NCBI GenBank assembly: GCA_937129355.1
Contig: CAKZNA010000220.1
Coordinates: 1 to 39,504 of the forward strand
Reading direction: 5' to 3'
Source: an uncultured Sphingomonadales bacterium
Lineage (GTDB): Bacteria; Pseudomonadota; Alphaproteobacteria; Sphingomonadales; Sphingomonadaceae
DNA length: 39,504 nucleotides
The notes beneath the pieces were generated by a model. It did not search any database. It saw nothing but the letters and a program-made list of their open reading frames with translations, and was not told the origin of the DNA. Each line of letters starts with the position of its first letter. Position 1 is the first letter of the stretch. A program made the position numbers and the translations under genes. This document shows positions 6,617-31,330 of the stretch, piece by piece.

Positions 6617-7918
6617 ATGAATCGCTTTTGTACGGCTTGCGGAAAACCGCTTGAAGGTGACATTCAATTTTGTGGTGCCTGCGGGAAGCCGCTTAAAAAG
6701 GCTGCGGGCACGTCAGTTGCAGATGCTAGCCCGCCAAAGGCAGAAGAAACCCTGCCTCCCGCGTCCGACCCTGTAAGTTCTCCGCCACCGAGAGCTTTCG
6801 ACGAAGAGCCGCCCGAATCCGTTTTTGCCGCAGCACCGGCTTCGTCTGCAGGTATCCCGCCAGAACCCGATCCAGCATATTTTGAAGATAACGGAGAGCG
6901 CAGCGACCGGATGAAATATCTGATTGGCGGCGGCGTGATATTTCTGCTCATCATTGCCGGGTTTTATTATTGGCTATTCTTGTCGGACGATGTCGGCCGC
7001 GGCGAAGGTGGCCGTCCGACGGCAGCAGCTACTGAACCAAAAGAGAAAGCCGCCGAAGCGCAGGTTTTTTATGCGACAAGCTCGGCAAATATCCGGGACA
7101 AAGCTTCAACCGCTGATGGTAAGATTACCGGCAAGCTTAAACGCGCTGCCGAAGTGAAGGGCACGCTGATAAAGGATGAAGATGGCGGAGACTGGTTAAA
7201 GCTGGAAGATAATCAAGGTTTCGTCTTTGCCGCAAATTTAAGCGCGAATGAAATGCCAGCATTTGCGAAGAGCTTTGGCCGCAAGTCGATCACGCTTGCC
7301 GCTCCCGTGGAATTATGGTCGTCACCAACCGAAGGTTCCGAACTGGTCGACCGGCTTTCCAAAGGGCTGACCATCAACGTTTCCGGCATTACCGAAAATG
7401 ACTATGCCGAGGTTATCCTGCGCAAAGGTGGCGTTGGTTATATAGCGAATGGCGCCAAAGTGGTGAAGGATGGCGATGGACCCAAAGGGCCGGCGATTGC
7501 CATCGCGCTGGATGTGCAAAAATGTGCCTCGGGCCCGGACATCAAAGCGCTTTTTGCCAAATTGGATGGCCGTTATAAATCTGCCTTGAAAAAAATCGAG
7601 GATGCTGACTATCCCGATGACAATGCCCGCGATGCAGCGATTGAAAAATTCCAGCTCGATAATGAGGGGAAGAGCGTCTATTTGGCCGTGCAGCGCAGTT
7701 TCAAAGGTTTGCAGATGACTGGCATCGCGCGCCACTATGAATCGCAATCAGTCTATTTTGCCGAGCCGCCTGCAAAAGTGATCGCGGTATTCAAAGGGCT
7801 TGGCGAAAAGATTAGTGACGGCGGACAGCTCCAGTCGCGCGATATTTACGCTGGCATTGATAAAACGAATGGCAAAGGCGCTACCATGGGAAAAAGCGAT
7901 CTAGGCTGCGGCGTCTAG
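6617..7918 (+). CDS. Zinc-ribbon, single-TM, SH3-like domain protein (uncharacterised)
   Basis: N-terminal CTACGKPL...CGACGKPL double CxxC, Pro-rich linker, TM YLIGGGVIFLLIIAGFYYWLFL, SH3-like ANIRDKASTADGKITGKLKRAAEVKG...DWLKLEDNQGFVFAANL. Confidence 0.8.
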   Translation: MNRFCTACGKPLEGDIQFCGACGKPLKKAAGTSVADASPPKAEETLPPASDPVSSPPPRAFDEEPPESVFAAAPASSAGIPPEPDPAYFEDNGERSDRMKYLIGGGVIFLLIIAGFYYWLFLSDDVGRGEGGRPTAAATEPKEKAAEAQVFYATSSANIRDKASTADGKITGKLKRAAEVKGTLIKDEDGGDWLKLEDNQGFVFAANLSANEMPAFAKSFGRKSITLAAPVELWSSPTEGSELVDRLSKGLTINVSGITENDYAEVILRKGGVGYIANGAKVVKDGDGPKGPAIAIALDVQKCASGPDIKALFAKLDGRYKSALKKIEDADYPDDNARDAAIEKFQLDNEGKSVYLAVQRSFKGLQMTGIARHYESQSVYFAEPPAKVIAVFKGLGEKISDGGQLQSRDIYAGIDKTNGKGATMGKSDLGCGV

Positions 7919-8667: not shown

Positions 8668-8750
8668 ATGCGACTCCGTGTTTTCCCTAGCCTAGAAGCA
8701 GGGATAGCAAACCGCAACTGAACCGCGCTTTAACGCGCAAAAGGGGCAAG

Positions 8751-9764
8751 CTATCGAAGCAATCCCAGCGCGTTATAGGCCGCATCGACCGTTGGGCGGC
8801 CTAGCGCTTCGGCGCGCTGCGCGCCTTTGGTCAGGATAGCATCGGTTGCAGTGGGGTCGGATTTTAGCCTGACAAATTCTTCACGGATTGGCCGCAATGT
8901 TTCGACGAGCAGGTCGGCAAGCGCAGGTTTGAAATCGCCAAACCCCTTGCCGGTAAACTGATCCAGGACGGCTTGCGCCTCCATATCTGCCGTCGCCGCA
9001 TAGATATTGACCAGATTGCGTGCCTCTGCGCGCCCTTCCAATTCATCTAGCGTGGCTGGCAACGCTTCCGGATCGGTCCGTGCTTTGCGGATTTTTTGCG
9101 CGATGGTGTCGTCGTCATCGGTCATGTTGATCCGGCTCATCTCGCTCGGATCGGATTTGCTCATTTTCGCTGCGCCATCGCGCAGGCTCATTACTCGCGT
9201 CGCTGTGCCGGTTATATAGGCTTCAGGTAGTGTGAAGACATCATCGCCTCCATCATCATTTTTGGCGCCAAAATCGCTGTTGAATTTCTGCGCAATGTCA
9301 CGCGCCAGCTCCAGATGCTGTTTCTGGTCTTCGCCCACCGGAACATGCGTTGCTTGGTAAATCAGCACATCGGCGGCCTGCAGCACTGGGTAGCCATATA
9401 GTCCCAGCGATGAACGCTGTTTATGCTTGCCCGATTTTTCCTTGAACTGTGTCATGCGGTCGAGCCAGCCCATCGGCGTGTTACAGATCAACATCCATGC
9501 AAGTTCTGCATGCCCCGAAACACGCGCTTGATTAAACAGGATGGCCTTTTCAGGGTCGACGCCGGCAGCAATCAACGCAGCCGCCATCTCGCGGGTATTG
9601 GCAGAAAGCGCTTTGGGTTCATTATGTACCGTGATTGCGTGCAGATCTGCTAGAAAGAACAGGCTCTCACCTTCATCCTGCATACGCACCCAGTTTTTGA
9701 TCGCGCCCAGATAATTGCCGAGATGCAAATTTCCGGTGGGCTGAATGCCCGATACTGTACGCAT
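8751..9764 (-). CDS. trpS: Tryptophanyl-tRNA synthetase
   Basis: [25 protein letters not shown] (HxGN-type motif), [23 protein letters not shown]. Confidence 0.97.
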
Positions 9765-23160: not shown

Positions 23161-23237
23161 AAAAAATGAAATAGTATTTGATATTGCGAACTAATAGCAA
23201 TAAAGCTCTCTTACACCGTTTCATGAGGGAGTTTGCC

Positions 23238-23666
23238 ATGCCGTATGATCTCAATATGCTATTGAAGGCGCAGGACTTGCGCGATCTTACACGAATGCAG
23301 ATGCATATGATCGTCTCGCTGCGCCTATGTGCGATTGGGCGGAAAAATGGTGCGGATATATTCGAGATGATGACATTGCGCTTTGGCGGCACCGCGCCCG
23401 CCAAAGCGATGCTGTCGCTGGCATCAGTGCTCGGCGATGCATGGCCGGAAAGCTTCACCATCTCGCGGCCCTGCTGCGTCATGGTGACGCCGGACGAAAT
23501 GCTCGCGGCGCAAATGCTGCATCATGTGCAAGTTGGCGACAGAAGAGGGTTTGCCGAAACCTGCGCTGAAATGATACCGCCTGTAAAGCATGACGATATT
23601 TTCGCCGCGATGGCCTATTTTGCCGGAGAGTTAAGCGCCACTATGGCAGCGCGTATCAATGGTTAG
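23238..23666 (+). CDS. Hypothetical protein
   Basis: Open frame MPYDLNMLLKAQDLRDLTRMQMHMIVSLRLCAIGRKNG...; stop codon overlaps the convergent gene. Confidence 0.6.
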   Translation: MPYDLNMLLKAQDLRDLTRMQMHMIVSLRLCAIGRKNGADIFEMMTLRFGGTAPAKAMLSLASVLGDAWPESFTISRPCCVMVTPDEMLAAQMLHHVQVGDRRGFAETCAEMIPPVKHDDIFAAMAYFAGELSATMAARING

Positions 23667-24211
23667 GCGGTTGCCGCCATCTTCTCGCCAGTAAACTGCC
23701 CAAGCACAAAACGCAGCGCCATCAGGCCGGTGAGCCACAGCACATCGTTTAGCGCTACAGCGGACACGATCTCTGCCGAGAAATTCTCTGCGCCGCCGCC
23801 GACGCTTGCATAGGCGCGTAAGGCGACTTGATAGGTGGCAAATGCGCCAACCCATGCCAGCGGCGTACCAAAGGCAAGATTACCCTTCATTTTGGTGAGA
23901 ACAAGCTTGGCCGCACCAAAGGCCAGAAGCGTAGCGCCTAGGATGGCGATGCCGTGGCCAACCGCCTGCGCGTCCCAAGGGAATGACAGCAGGAAAAAGC
24001 CTATGGCCTGATTAACTGCCCAAACAGAGGCAACGAGCGCCAGCCCGTTACGCGGCTTCATGGTGAGCGCCGCCAAAGTTGCAAAGGCAGCGAAAGGGAA
24101 AATACATGCAAGCGCCATGCAGCCCAAAATGGTGGCTACCGCTAGCGAAGTCGGCCAGGCCGCCTTGTTCATTATGCTCGAATTATCCATGTCATTTCCC
24201 TTTTCATTCAT
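23663..24211 (-). CDS. Polytopic inner-membrane protein of unknown function, apparent second gene of B12-riboswitch operon
   Basis: About 5-6 hydrophobic segments in 182 aa; 38 bp downstream of the BtuB-like gene on the same strand. Confidence 0.75.
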   Translation of the reverse strand: MNEKGNDMDNSSIMNKAAWPTSLAVATILGCMALACIFPFAAFATLAALTMKPRNGLALVASVWAVNQAIGFFLLSFPWDAQAVGHGIAILGATLLAFGAAKLVLTKMKGNLAFGTPLAWVGAFATYQVALRAYASVGGGAENFSAEIVSAVALNDVLWLTGLMALRFVLGQFTGEKMAATA

Positions 24212-24249
24212 TGCTGCATTAGCGGCCTTTGCCGGTCAACTCAATCGCG

Positions 24250-26175
24250 TTAAAACCTAGCGCGTACCCCGACATATCCGGCACGGCCCGCCGTTCCGAA
24301 ATTCGCCACTGTTTGATAGTCCACATCAAATAGGTTTTCGACGCGGCCATAAATTTCGAAAGCATCTGATACCGGATAAACCGCACGCAATGATGTCAGT
24401 GCGTAGCCATCCAGACGCGTGAAATTGCCATTATCGTCAAAGCTGTCGCCAACCAGATTAACCGTGCTGCCCAATCTCACACCGATGGGCGTGGTCCAGT
24501 CGGCCGAGATGCTCGCGCTATCAACCGGACGGCGCGCGAGACGGTTGCCGAATTGCCCGCCGGGCGAGCGATTCTCTGCATCGACCAGCGCATAAAAACC
24601 GCTAACCGTGAAATTATCACTGGGCCGGATTTCTAGTTCCAGTTCCAAACCTTTGGCGCGCACTCGCTCAATATTTTCCGACTGGAATGTCGCGAAGCTA
24701 AAGGTGATTTGATTATTTGACCGGCGGTTGAAATAGGTCGCTCGCGCGGTCACGGCATTGTCCAGAAAGCTATGCTCTATTCCGGCGTCAAAATTGCGGG
24801 CGGTTTCGGGAAGCAGCGCCGGATTGCCGAAAAAGACTGGAACAGACTCAGTTAGCGTGGGTGCACGAAAACCCTCGGCATAGGTGGCGCGAAAGACGGT
24901 TTGGCCATCATTCGGCGTATAGGCCGCGTTGGCTCCAAAGGTCGTTTCGCCGCCATAGAGATTGTAATCGTCATACCGCACACCGCCGGTCAGTGTCAGG
25001 CCGCTGGCTGGCCGGACGATAAGTTGCCCAAAACCGCTGGTCACTTTGCTGCTCGCTATATTGGGCGCAGTGGCTCCGCCAGCGGGGAAGAATGTGCTCG
25101 CCTCGCTGCGTTCATGTTCCAGCCCGAATACAAGCGTTGCCAAATCGCCCGCCATGTCGATGCTGCCATGATATTCGAACCGATCTATCGTGCCATCGAG
25201 CTGGTTATCGCTGAAGGTGATAGCGCCGCCTGCCGCGTTGCTTGTGCCCTTCCGGTCGATATCGGTGCGCGTATAGCTTAACCGGTTGCGAAACCGACCA
25301 TCCAGAAAATCTGCGTGCAGCCCGACATAGCCGACAAATTGTTCAGTGCGGATTTCGGGGGGTGAATTTGGATCGCGCGGGAAGGTTTCATCAAATTCGA
25401 CCGTGCCGTTATTATAATATCCACGCAGATCGATGGAGATATTGTCAGATAGCGCAATGTCGAGTTTTCCGTTGGCGCTGAAATTTTCATATCCATCGCG
25501 CTCGGCTCCGCCTTCAAGCGCAGAAATACCATCGGTCCGGTAATATCCGCCGCCAATGCTGCCCGATATTATGCCGGACGTGCCGGAAATATTGGCGGAG
25601 GCGGATCCAGTGTCAAAGCTGCCATATTCGGCGCTCACGCGTCCGCCAAAGCTGCCAGTCGGAGCGGCGGTGCGGATATCGACAACGCCGCCAATGGCCT
25701 GACTGCCCCAGATTACGGAATTGGGTCCGCGCAATATTTCCACGCGGTCGATATTGCCGGTCAGGAGGTTTCCGAAGTTGAAGGCGGCGTTGGGCGAGGA
25801 TGGGTCGTTAAGGCGGACGCCGTCGATCAGCACCAGCGTTTGCGATGAATTGCCGCCGCGAATGAAGGCGCTCGACACTTGTCCAACCCCGCCGTTGCGG
25901 GCGACCGACACGCCGGGAACTTCGCGTAGTGCGTCGCTGATGACGGCAATCTGCTTTTGCTCAAGATCATCGCGGGTGACTACGGTAATGGCGTTGCCGC
26001 TATCTTCTACAGGTTGTTCAAAGCCGCTAGCGGTCACGATAATGTCGTCGCTTTTTGGCAAAGCGATTGTGCTATCGTCGATGAAAATGGCTTCATCTGC
26101 TGGCATATTGTCTTGCGCCGATGCGACAGTGGGCAGCAGGGCAAGCGCAGCCGCTGTATATCTCAAATAGGTCAC
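24250..26175 (-). CDS. TonB-dependent receptor, BtuB-like (cobalamin uptake)
   Basis: Signal peptide; DDIIVTASGFEQPVEDSGNAITVVTRDDL (TonB box and plug), FIRGGNSSQTLVLIDGVRLNDPSSP, ILRGPNSVIWGSQAIGGVVDI, C-terminal beta strand ending in F; GTG start; cobalamin riboswitch upstream. Confidence 0.92.
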   Translation of the reverse strand: MTYLRYTAAALALLPTVASAQDNMPADEAIFIDDSTIALPKSDDIIVTASGFEQPVEDSGNAITVVTRDDLEQKQIAVISDALREVPGVSVARNGGVGQVSSAFIRGGNSSQTLVLIDGVRLNDPSSPNAAFNFGNLLTGNIDRVEILRGPNSVIWGSQAIGGVVDIRTAAPTGSFGGRVSAEYGSFDTGSASANISGTSGIISGSIGGGYYRTDGISALEGGAERDGYENFSANGKLDIALSDNISIDLRGYYNNGTVEFDETFPRDPNSPPEIRTEQFVGYVGLHADFLDGRFRNRLSYTRTDIDRKGTSNAAGGAITFSDNQLDGTIDRFEYHGSIDMAGDLATLVFGLEHERSEASTFFPAGGATAPNIASSKVTSGFGQLIVRPASGLTLTGGVRYDDYNLYGGETTFGANAAYTPNDGQTVFRATYAEGFRAPTLTESVPVFFGNPALLPETARNFDAGIEHSFLDNAVTARATYFNRRSNNQITFSFATFQSENIERVRAKGLELELEIRPSDNFTVSGFYALVDAENRSPGGQFGNRLARRPVDSASISADWTTPIGVRLGSTVNLVGDSFDDNGNFTRLDGYALTSLRAVYPVSDAFEIYGRVENLFDVDYQTVANFGTAGRAGYVGVRARF

Positions 26176-26261
26176 TTAAATTCTCCTTCGCGTGACGTTT
26201 CATTTCATGCCGTCATGCAAGGGAAACCCCCGTCCGTTCGGTACACCTCGCCCGCGCGGAA

Positions 26262-26460
26262 AAACGACCAGATGTGGCAGGTCTCCTGGCTCCCGGGTCA
26301 CTATTTCCGCGCCGCCTTCCCGAATTGCTTCAGTGGCATTTGGCGCGAAAACTCGCCGGTCACAGTTGCGAGGGCAGCTTTGGATTACGCGGTGGTCAAG
26401 CCAGCGCTTCCAAATTCCCTTTTCATGGCGCGTATCGGCGCCAACCACATTTGTGAGGCG
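26262..26460 (-). ncRNA. Cobalamin (B12) riboswitch
   Basis: Reverse strand shows AAAAGGGAAT..., GCTGCCCTCGCAACTGT, GCCACTG (26331-26337), CGGGAAGG and the B12 box GAGCCAGGAGACCTGCC (about 26277-26293) in canonical order, upstream of the receptor start at 26175. Confidence 0.93.
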
Positions 26461-26591
26461 GCCTATAGGACGGCATATCGCCATTTGGCAAGCTGCATCG
26501 ATATCAACGCTTCCCTTTCTTAATCGCTCGGTTAAACAGGAGAGAGAAGGGAGAATCGACAATCAATATCGCGCCGCTTAACTTTGCGACT

Positions 26592-29659: not shown

Positions 29660-31330
29660 ATGAGCGAAGCAGCGGCAGATGGCGATGCACCCATCAAAAC
29701 CCAGAACGAAAAGCTGGTCATTGCGGCTTCCTCGCTCGGCACGGTTTTTGAATGGTATGATTTCTATCTCTACGGGCTACTTGCCGGATATATTTCGGTG
29801 CAATTCTTCGCGGGCGTCAATGAAACGACCGGGTTTATCTTCGCGCTGGCGGCCTTTGCGGCGGGATTTGCGGTGCGGCCATTTGGCGCGCTTTTCTTTG
29901 GGCGGATTGGCGACCTTGTCGGGCGCAAGAATACGTTTCTGGTGACGATGGGCCTTATGGGTCTTTCGACATTTCTGGTCGGCCTGCTGCCTGCCTATGC
30001 CAGCATCGGCGTGGCGGCTCCGATCATACTGGTTGGTTTGCGGCTGGTGCAGGGGCTTGCGCTGGGCGGTGAATATGGCGGCGCGGCGACTTATGTGGCG
30101 GAACATGCACCCGAGGGAAAACGCGGGCTGTATACCAGCTTCATTCAGACCACGGCGACGATGGGATTGTTTGCCGCGCTCCTCGTGGTGATCGGCACGC
30201 GCACATTGATGGGTGAGGAAGCGTTTAGCGCATGGGGCTGGCGCATACCGTTTCTGATTTCGATGCTGCTGCTAATCGTATCGCTATGGATACGCATGCA
30301 ATTGGATGAAAGCCCGGTTTTCAAGAAAATGAAGGCCGAAGGTAAAACGTCCAAGGCTCCGCTGACTGAGTCGTTTGCGCGTTGGGGCAATTTGAAATGG
30401 GTGCTGGCCGCATTGCTTGGCGGTGTCGCCGGGCAAGCGGTGGTCTGGTATACGGGGCAGTTTTATGCGCTGTTCTTTCTTGAGAAGATGCTCAAAGTTG
30501 ATGGCGCGACGACCAATATTATGATCGCGATCGCGCTGATTATCGGGACGCCATTTTTCATTTTCTTCGGCTGGTTGTCGGACAAGATCGGGCGCAAGCC
30601 AATTATCCTGACCGGCTGCGCGTTGGCAGCGATTAGCTATTTCCCCGCTTTCCATGCGCTCACCGACGCGGCCAATCCGGCGATGGCAAAGGCGCAGATT
30701 GAAGCGCCCGTTGTGGTAACGGCGGATCCCGATAGCTGTTCGTTGCAGTTTGACCCGATTGGCAAAAACAAGTTCGACGGCAGCGGCTGTGACATTGCCA
30801 AAAGCTATCTCGCAAAAACCGGTATAAGCTATCAAAATGTCAGCGACGCTGGCGTATCCGGCACAGCGGCAACGGTTTCTATTGGTGACAAATCCTATCC
30901 GGCACCTGCACTGGATGCGTTGGATGGCGAGGCAAAGGCCTCCGCGATTGCATCTTACCGGGAGACATTGGGCAAAGCCGCCGCCGATGCGGGCTATCCG
31001 GCCAAGGCCGATGATGCGCAGATCAACAAGCCTTTGGTGGTCGCGATCCTGACTTATCTCGTGCTGTTGGTGACGGCGGTATACGGCCCGATTGCGGCGA
31101 TGCTGGTGGAGCTGTTCCCCAGCCGTATTCGCTATACATCCATGTCGCTGCCCTATCATATCGGCAATGGCTGGTTTGGCGGGTTCCTTCCCACCACCGC
31201 CTTCGCGATGGTCGCGGCTACGGGCGATATATATTACGGCTTATGGTATCCGGTCGTCATTGCGGCGCTGACGGTAGTGGTCGGGCTGCTATTCCTACCC
31301 GAGACATTCAAGCGCAAGATTGATCACTAG
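29660..31330 (+). CDS. MFS transporter, metabolite:H+ symporter (MHS)-like, with large internal loop domain
   Basis: SSLGTVFEWYDFYLYGLLAGYISVQFF, RPFGALFFGRIGDLVGRKNTFL, GLRLVQGLALGGEYGGAATYVAEHAP; about 110-aa hydrophilic insert before the last TMs. Confidence 0.9.
   Translation: MSEAAADGDAPIKTQNEKLVIAASSLGTVFEWYDFYLYGLLAGYISVQFFAGVNETTGFIFALAAFAAGFAVRPFGALFFGRIGDLVGRKNTFLVTMGLMGLSTFLVGLLPAYASIGVAAPIILVGLRLVQGLALGGEYGGAATYVAEHAPEGKRGLYTSFIQTTATMGLFAALLVVIGTRTLMGEEAFSAWGWRIPFLISMLLLIVSLWIRMQLDESPVFKKMKAEGKTSKAPLTESFARWGNLKWVLAALLGGVAGQAVVWYTGQFYALFFLEKMLKVDGATTNIMIAIALIIGTPFFIFFGWLSDKIGRKPIILTGCALAAISYFPAFHALTDAANPAMAKAQIEAPVVVTADPDSCSLQFDPIGKNKFDGSGCDIAKSYLAKTGISYQNVSDAGVSGTAATVSIGDKSYPAPALDALDGEAKASAIASYRETLGKAAADAGYPAKADDAQINKPLVVAILTYLVLLVTAVYGPIAAMLVELFPSRIRYTSMSLPYHIGNGWFGGFLPTTAFAMVAATGDIYYGLWYPVVIAALTVVVGLLFLPETFKRKIDH

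Follow-up and report, generated by a model that had tools for sequence, protein, structure and literature searches.

Many Gram-negative B12 auxotrophs encode BtuB without BtuCDF, and the crossing of the inner membrane in these bacteria is an acknowledged gap (PMC6072759). One answer known from Gram-negatives without BtuCDF is BtuM of Thiobacillus denitrificans, a small membrane protein encoded by a single gene near btuB (PMC6072759). The other described systems that come closest to the operon presented here are BtuCDF itself, a type II ABC importer of B12, and the S-components of ECF transporters (ThiT, 5edl, CbrT). We analysed a stretch of 39,504 nucleotides (the window) from an uncultured bacterium of the Sphingomonadaceae. 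A B12 operon in it consists of a riboswitch, a receptor gene and the gene of a small membrane protein, MP, and nothing else. Its features, in window positions, are:

26259-26464, minus strand: cobalamin riboswitch aptamer RF00174, the operon leader (cmscan)
26176-26258, minus strand: expression platform (RNA fold of the leader)
24250-26175, minus strand: BtuB-like TonB-dependent receptor of 641 aa with a GTG start (Pfam Plug and TonB_dep_Rec)
23663-24190, minus strand: MP, a six-helix inner-membrane protein; the ORF is open from 24211, with a likely start at 24190 (175 aa)
24104-24106, minus strand: codon of the invariant Cys36 of MP, in a CxxPF motif (alignments A1 and A2)

MP resembles BtuM in having six helices, both ends in the cytosol (predicted for MP) and one invariant cysteine near the periplasmic face. 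Both also adjoin btuB or a btuB-like gene in hosts without BtuCDF (for MP, hosts in which FecCD is absent). However, no sequence similarity between the two was detectable in a profile search of the PDB (E 10), and the cysteine of MP follows helix 1 (residue 36), whereas Cys80 of BtuM lies in loop 3. Unlike BtuM, MP has no btuR beside it, and its resemblance to the S-component fold is marginal (TM 0.39-0.47, in one of two models). With BtuCDF, MP shares the slot behind riboswitch and receptor and the inferred job, but it shows no homology to FecCD/ABC permeases and has no ATPase, and the operon in the window is without a binding protein. ECF S-components are like MP in size, helix number and topology, but the Foldseek matches to them were not significant and no ECF genes were seen beside MP loci.

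The earlier note on this DNA had described a well-formed cobalamin riboswitch in front of a TonB-dependent receptor, and this description was borne out. The aptamer matched RF00174 over the entire model (1-189 of 189) with 116.5 bits (E 9.6e-29), above the gathering score of 31.5, and reading of the sequence located the canonical B12 box AGCCAGGAGACCTGCC within it on the minus strand. A riboswitch search found this one copy in the window and no second one in the whole genome. In the predicted fold of the leader RNA, the Shine-Dalgarno sequence of the receptor, AAGGAG (26183-26188), is paired in a CTTGC...GCGAAGGAG hairpin, while a terminator scan found no terminator-like site in the expression platform. 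From this combination we infer a switch that probably acts at the level of translation. Sites resembling promoters or terminators were no more frequent than chance over the 3.2 kb of the operon region, and none was found between the receptor gene and the MP gene.

The receptor carries a signal peptide and a TonB box (DDIIVTA). Its top NCBIfam model was TonB-B12 TIGR01779 (E 4e-84), where its 283 bits fall below the equivalog cutoff of 599.7, and we therefore name it BtuB-like and do not certify it as BtuB. Its closest solved relative in a sequence search of the PDB was E. coli BtuB (1nqf, E 2e-47); nearest solved relative and upstream B12 riboswitch both place it with BtuB.

The complete ORF of MP (23663-24211, minus strand) encodes 182 aa. 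The likely start is its second ATG, at 24190, since an AAGGG Shine-Dalgarno sequence lies ahead of this codon and the homologs align from there; residue numbers nevertheless count from 24211. The gap of 38 bp between receptor and MP given in the earlier note holds for the 24211 start and becomes 59 bp from the likelier one. A convergent ORF overlaps the end of MP, and the unit is therefore limited to receptor and MP. This ORF (23178-23666, plus strand, 162 aa) shares 4 bp with MP at its stop, belongs to no Pfam family and has a 48% homolog at the equivalent place in locus L039. Elsewhere in the window, an MFS-type transporter of 556 aa (29660-31330, plus strand) has in its second half a long insertion of ~100 residues that looks soluble.

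MP itself matched no family in Pfam or NCBIfam, and 37 homologs gave no credible match to either collection. Profiles built from 37 rows (A1) and 53 rows (A2) returned nothing at E ≤ 10 from all PDB sequences, so that a confident match to an unrelated family was not found in Pfam, NCBIfam or PDB sequences. CbtA/CbtB, to which the earlier note could not match the protein either, NiCoT and the other Pfam-listed cobalt and nickel transporters were without a match in any of the 37 members at E ≤ 1. Weak matches to DUF4342, TauE, archaeosortase and others were rejected as sub-threshold and scattered, each occurring in one to three members. A search by content of open literature other than the original comparative study (Rodionov 2003, J Biol Chem) gave no earlier account of the family. 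In RefSeq, MP homologs are labelled 'hypothetical protein'. The name BtuN, which we take to come from a SEED subsystem, may denote the MP family or another one. In Methylobacterium and Rhodocyclus it is used in annotation for a component that is predicted to belong to a B12 transporter and lies near btuB (PMC7038796, PMC8954225). Rhodocyclus is betaproteobacterial, whereas the MP profile was found only in Alphaproteobacteria among 399 genomes of the phylum.

AlphaFold (AF2) models were obtained for MP of the window (pLDDT 89, pTM 0.84) and for a distant homolog (pLDDT 90, pTM 0.85). MP was modelled with long helices at residues 10-34, 53-74, 81-107, 112-138 and 146-174 and a short helix at 40-50. 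Over the 37 homologs, the mean number of K+R was 1.1 at the N-terminus, 2.0 in loop 2, 2.8 in loop 4 and 0.9 at the C-terminus, which places these parts inside, and 0.05, 0.16 and 0.08 in loops 1, 3 and 5, which places these outside. By this positive-inside distribution both ends are predicted to be cytosolic. The 'about 5-6' hydrophobic segments of the earlier note thus did belong to a membrane protein, and model and charge distribution now set their number at six. In the predicted topology, helix 1 has Cys36 at its periplasmic end. All full-length homologs keep this residue, and neither the 37 rows of A1 nor the 53 rows of A2 show an exception; Pro39, Gln68, Gly71 and Leu163 are the other residues invariant in all 53 sequences. 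By its likeness to Cys80 of BtuM, Cys36 is a candidate ligand of cobalt.

MP was found in 34 of 301 Sphingomonadaceae genomes, from 25 of 96 genera. A profile search of 385 genomes added 16 that are spread over many families of the class Alphaproteobacteria, and found none outside this class in the sample of 399 genomes. The association with B12 riboswitches that the earlier note had seen at a single locus recurs among the homologs: in 43 of 51 MP loci a B12 riboswitch lies upstream on the same strand. About 0.001 per locus would be expected by chance, and a chance juxtaposition was rejected on this ground. Two of the eight riboswitch-negative loci (in genomes G126 and G282) are cut by contig ends. 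At 39 loci the riboswitch lies ~2.0-2.8 kb from MP, as expected with a receptor between, and the receptor was identified in most of them; at 4 loci it stands directly before MP, at 122-180 bp, with no receptor between.

The earlier note had also seen no btuCDF genes near MP. This proved correct, and the absence extends further: no FecCD/BtuC permease was found anywhere in the genome of the window, which is 96% complete. FecCD is likewise absent from 11 other MP-carrying Sphingomonadaceae, including the complete single-contig genomes G271, G091, G206 and G283; no FecCD/BtuC permease was found in G271, which is of the same genus as the window genome, or in G024 and G110. In the family as a whole FecCD is present in 278 of 301 genomes, although this domain includes permeases for siderophores as well, so that its presence is no proof of BtuC. 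Of the 281 good genomes, 12 have MP without FecCD, 22 have both, 3 have neither and 244 have FecCD without MP. MP is thus carried by 12 of 15 genomes without FecCD and by 22 of 266 with it (Fisher p ~5e-10). The genomes with neither (G026, G208, G256) are good but fragmented, each into 300-380 contigs.

Since species are not independent, the pattern within genera weighs more than this test. In genera g1, g25, g83, g91, g92 and g93, 10 species have MP and no FecCD and no other class occurs beside 19 species with FecCD and no MP; as in most of the Sphingomonadaceae survey, the absence of MP comes from a single-sequence search, and it was rechecked with a sensitive profile in 5 of the 19 (G070, G093, G157, G207, G247). 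Each of the 20 genomes without MP that were examined carries both a B12 riboswitch and FecCD. In genus-mates, btuF-btuC-btuD fills the slot behind riboswitch and receptor (L147 by Pfam/NCBIfam, L145 by sequence reading; L144 shows btuF-btuC), and the receptor of one of these operons is 57% identical to that of the window. The common slot and this identity suggest that the receptor lineage was kept and the inner-membrane module exchanged.

B12 must be imported by the organism of the window, as its genome contains MetH and lacks CbiC/CobH, and it is predicted to be a B12 auxotroph. The same combination was found in 10 of the 11 other FecCD-less MP carriers of the family; MetH was not found in G126 (180 contigs), and CbiC/CobH is absent from all 12.

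MP occupies the slot of BtuCDF and is present when BtuCDF is absent, and for these reasons it is probably an unrecognised inner-membrane route for B12. We consider it likely that MP is a single-protein importer of corrinoids, BtuM-like in its working, that replaces BtuCDF. The earlier note had proposed an inner-membrane step or an accessory factor, and three outcomes of the checks that it named, the absence of btuC, the linkage of homologs to riboswitches and the lack of a match to an unrelated family, agree with it, as does the complementarity with BtuC. The operon would then be a minimal, riboswitch-controlled system for scavenging B12. The BtuB-like receptor, with TonB, would bring the corrinoid across the outer membrane; MP would bind it at the periplasmic face and pass it to the cytoplasm, which is the job of BtuCDF. 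Cys36, at the periplasmic mouth, probably ligates the corrinoid cobalt in the manner of Cys80 in BtuM, and uptake could proceed by facilitated diffusion pulled by intracellular trapping through binding and adenosylation.

At 12 Sphingomonadaceae loci the gene behind MP encodes a PF01497 (BtuF-like) protein and is translationally coupled to MP: in most cases its start overlaps or adjoins the stop of MP, and at nearly all loci the two are no more than a few bases apart. L050 has such a gene at 6954-7883. A BtuF-like gene also follows MP in L096 (6701-7498) and L102 (8297-9067), the products of which match the BtuF equivalog model under its cutoff, and, judged by gene order, in L094. The PF01497 domain starts in the first residues and leaves no room for a signal peptide, so the partner is presumably cytosolic and might be an intracellular acceptor of B12. 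In loci L055, L056 and L057 (genomes G064, G163 and G293, of genera g65, g6 and g39), blocks of ~9 kb in total with the riboswitch-receptor-MP-binding-protein unit share 99.6-99.9% DNA identity. Such identity across three genera indicates recent horizontal transfer of the unit among them. MP homologs were found on plasmids too, in Methylocella and Qipengyuania.

Other genes accompany MP elsewhere. On a Methylocella tundrae plasmid, a protein with a Pfam match to DUF7676 is encoded between receptor and MP (L166:6368-6970), and a similar ORF, by position, stands at this place in L104; DUF7676 may be part of B12 uptake. In L091 the gene immediately behind MP (8743-9633) encodes a TonB C-terminal domain, and L093 has a gene like it in position and sequence, which suggests a dedicated TonB for the receptor. 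In Sphingomonas-type loci (L059, L061-L073) MP often heads a salvage operon with btuCD-like genes upstream, so that MP and BtuCD coexist in this branch; cobT was verified by Pfam, while cobC, cobS, cobU and the btuCD-like genes were assigned by reading of the sequence.

Taken across these loci, MP could tentatively be seen as a sequence-unrelated family of solitary corrinoid importers, widespread in Alphaproteobacteria, horizontally moved and binding cobalt by an invariant periplasmic cysteine, one branch of which passes B12 on to a cytoplasmic BtuF-like protein that is co-translated with it and has no leader. We know of no earlier description of a transport-and-trap pair made up of a protein of the MP type and a cytoplasmic BtuF-like protein.

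The alternative that survives best, though we judge it unlikely, is that another inner-membrane transporter moves B12 and that MP is an accessory factor, acting in periplasmic substrate capture, in decyanation or in aid of the receptor and TonB. MP is not only a substitute, since 22 of the 34 MP-carrying Sphingomonadaceae genomes also have FecCD, in some cases with btuCD-like genes adjoining MP, and this coexistence could reflect an accessory role or a second system with another specificity. The 12 MP genomes of the family without FecCD, however, offer no such permease to assist. The salvage operons with cobT and cobS beside btuCD-like genes and the TonB-domain genes next to MP in L091 and L093 would suit an accessory, but MP can also lead a riboswitch unit of its own without a receptor, and decyanation need not be a separate task, as BtuM joins it with transport in one protein.

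We give considerably less credit to the idea that MP is a divergent ECF-type S-component with its energising module encoded elsewhere. Foldseek searches of the PDB with the two MP models gave nothing significant. The highest TM-scores of the second model were to S-components (ThiT 0.44/0.47, 5edl 0.39/0.38), in keeping with the size, the six helices and the cytosolic ends of MP, but these matches had E values of 1.1 and 6.3 and an rmsd above 6.5 Å, and no S-component was among the 50 matches listed for the first model. No EcfT or EcfA gene was noticed beside the MP loci examined, and no ECF module is present in related BtuM hosts.

Least credible of all is a transporter of cobalt or of another substrate of the B12 regulon (Cbt-type): B12-riboswitch regulons are known to include cobalt transporters (PMC3766115, PMC2667541) and two genomes outside the Sphingomonadaceae with the riboswitch directly before MP (G341, G563) do make corrins, but MP is coupled to a BtuB-like receptor and a BtuF-like protein, matches no CbtA/CbtB or NiCoT family, and in the FecCD-less group, where the absence of CbiC/CobH means that no cobalt is used in corrin synthesis, cobalt uptake for this purpose is not plausible and was rejected.

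As a likely corrinoid importer, the MP family offers a concrete inner-membrane candidate for B12 in a set of Alphaproteobacteria, including organisms without FecCD. If this is true, it would be a further solution by one small protein for a very large cofactor, unrelated in sequence to BtuM, and possibly a second case in which a cysteine ligates corrinoid cobalt in a transporter. Genome annotation of sphingomonads and their relatives could then include predictions of B12 uptake and cross-feeding.
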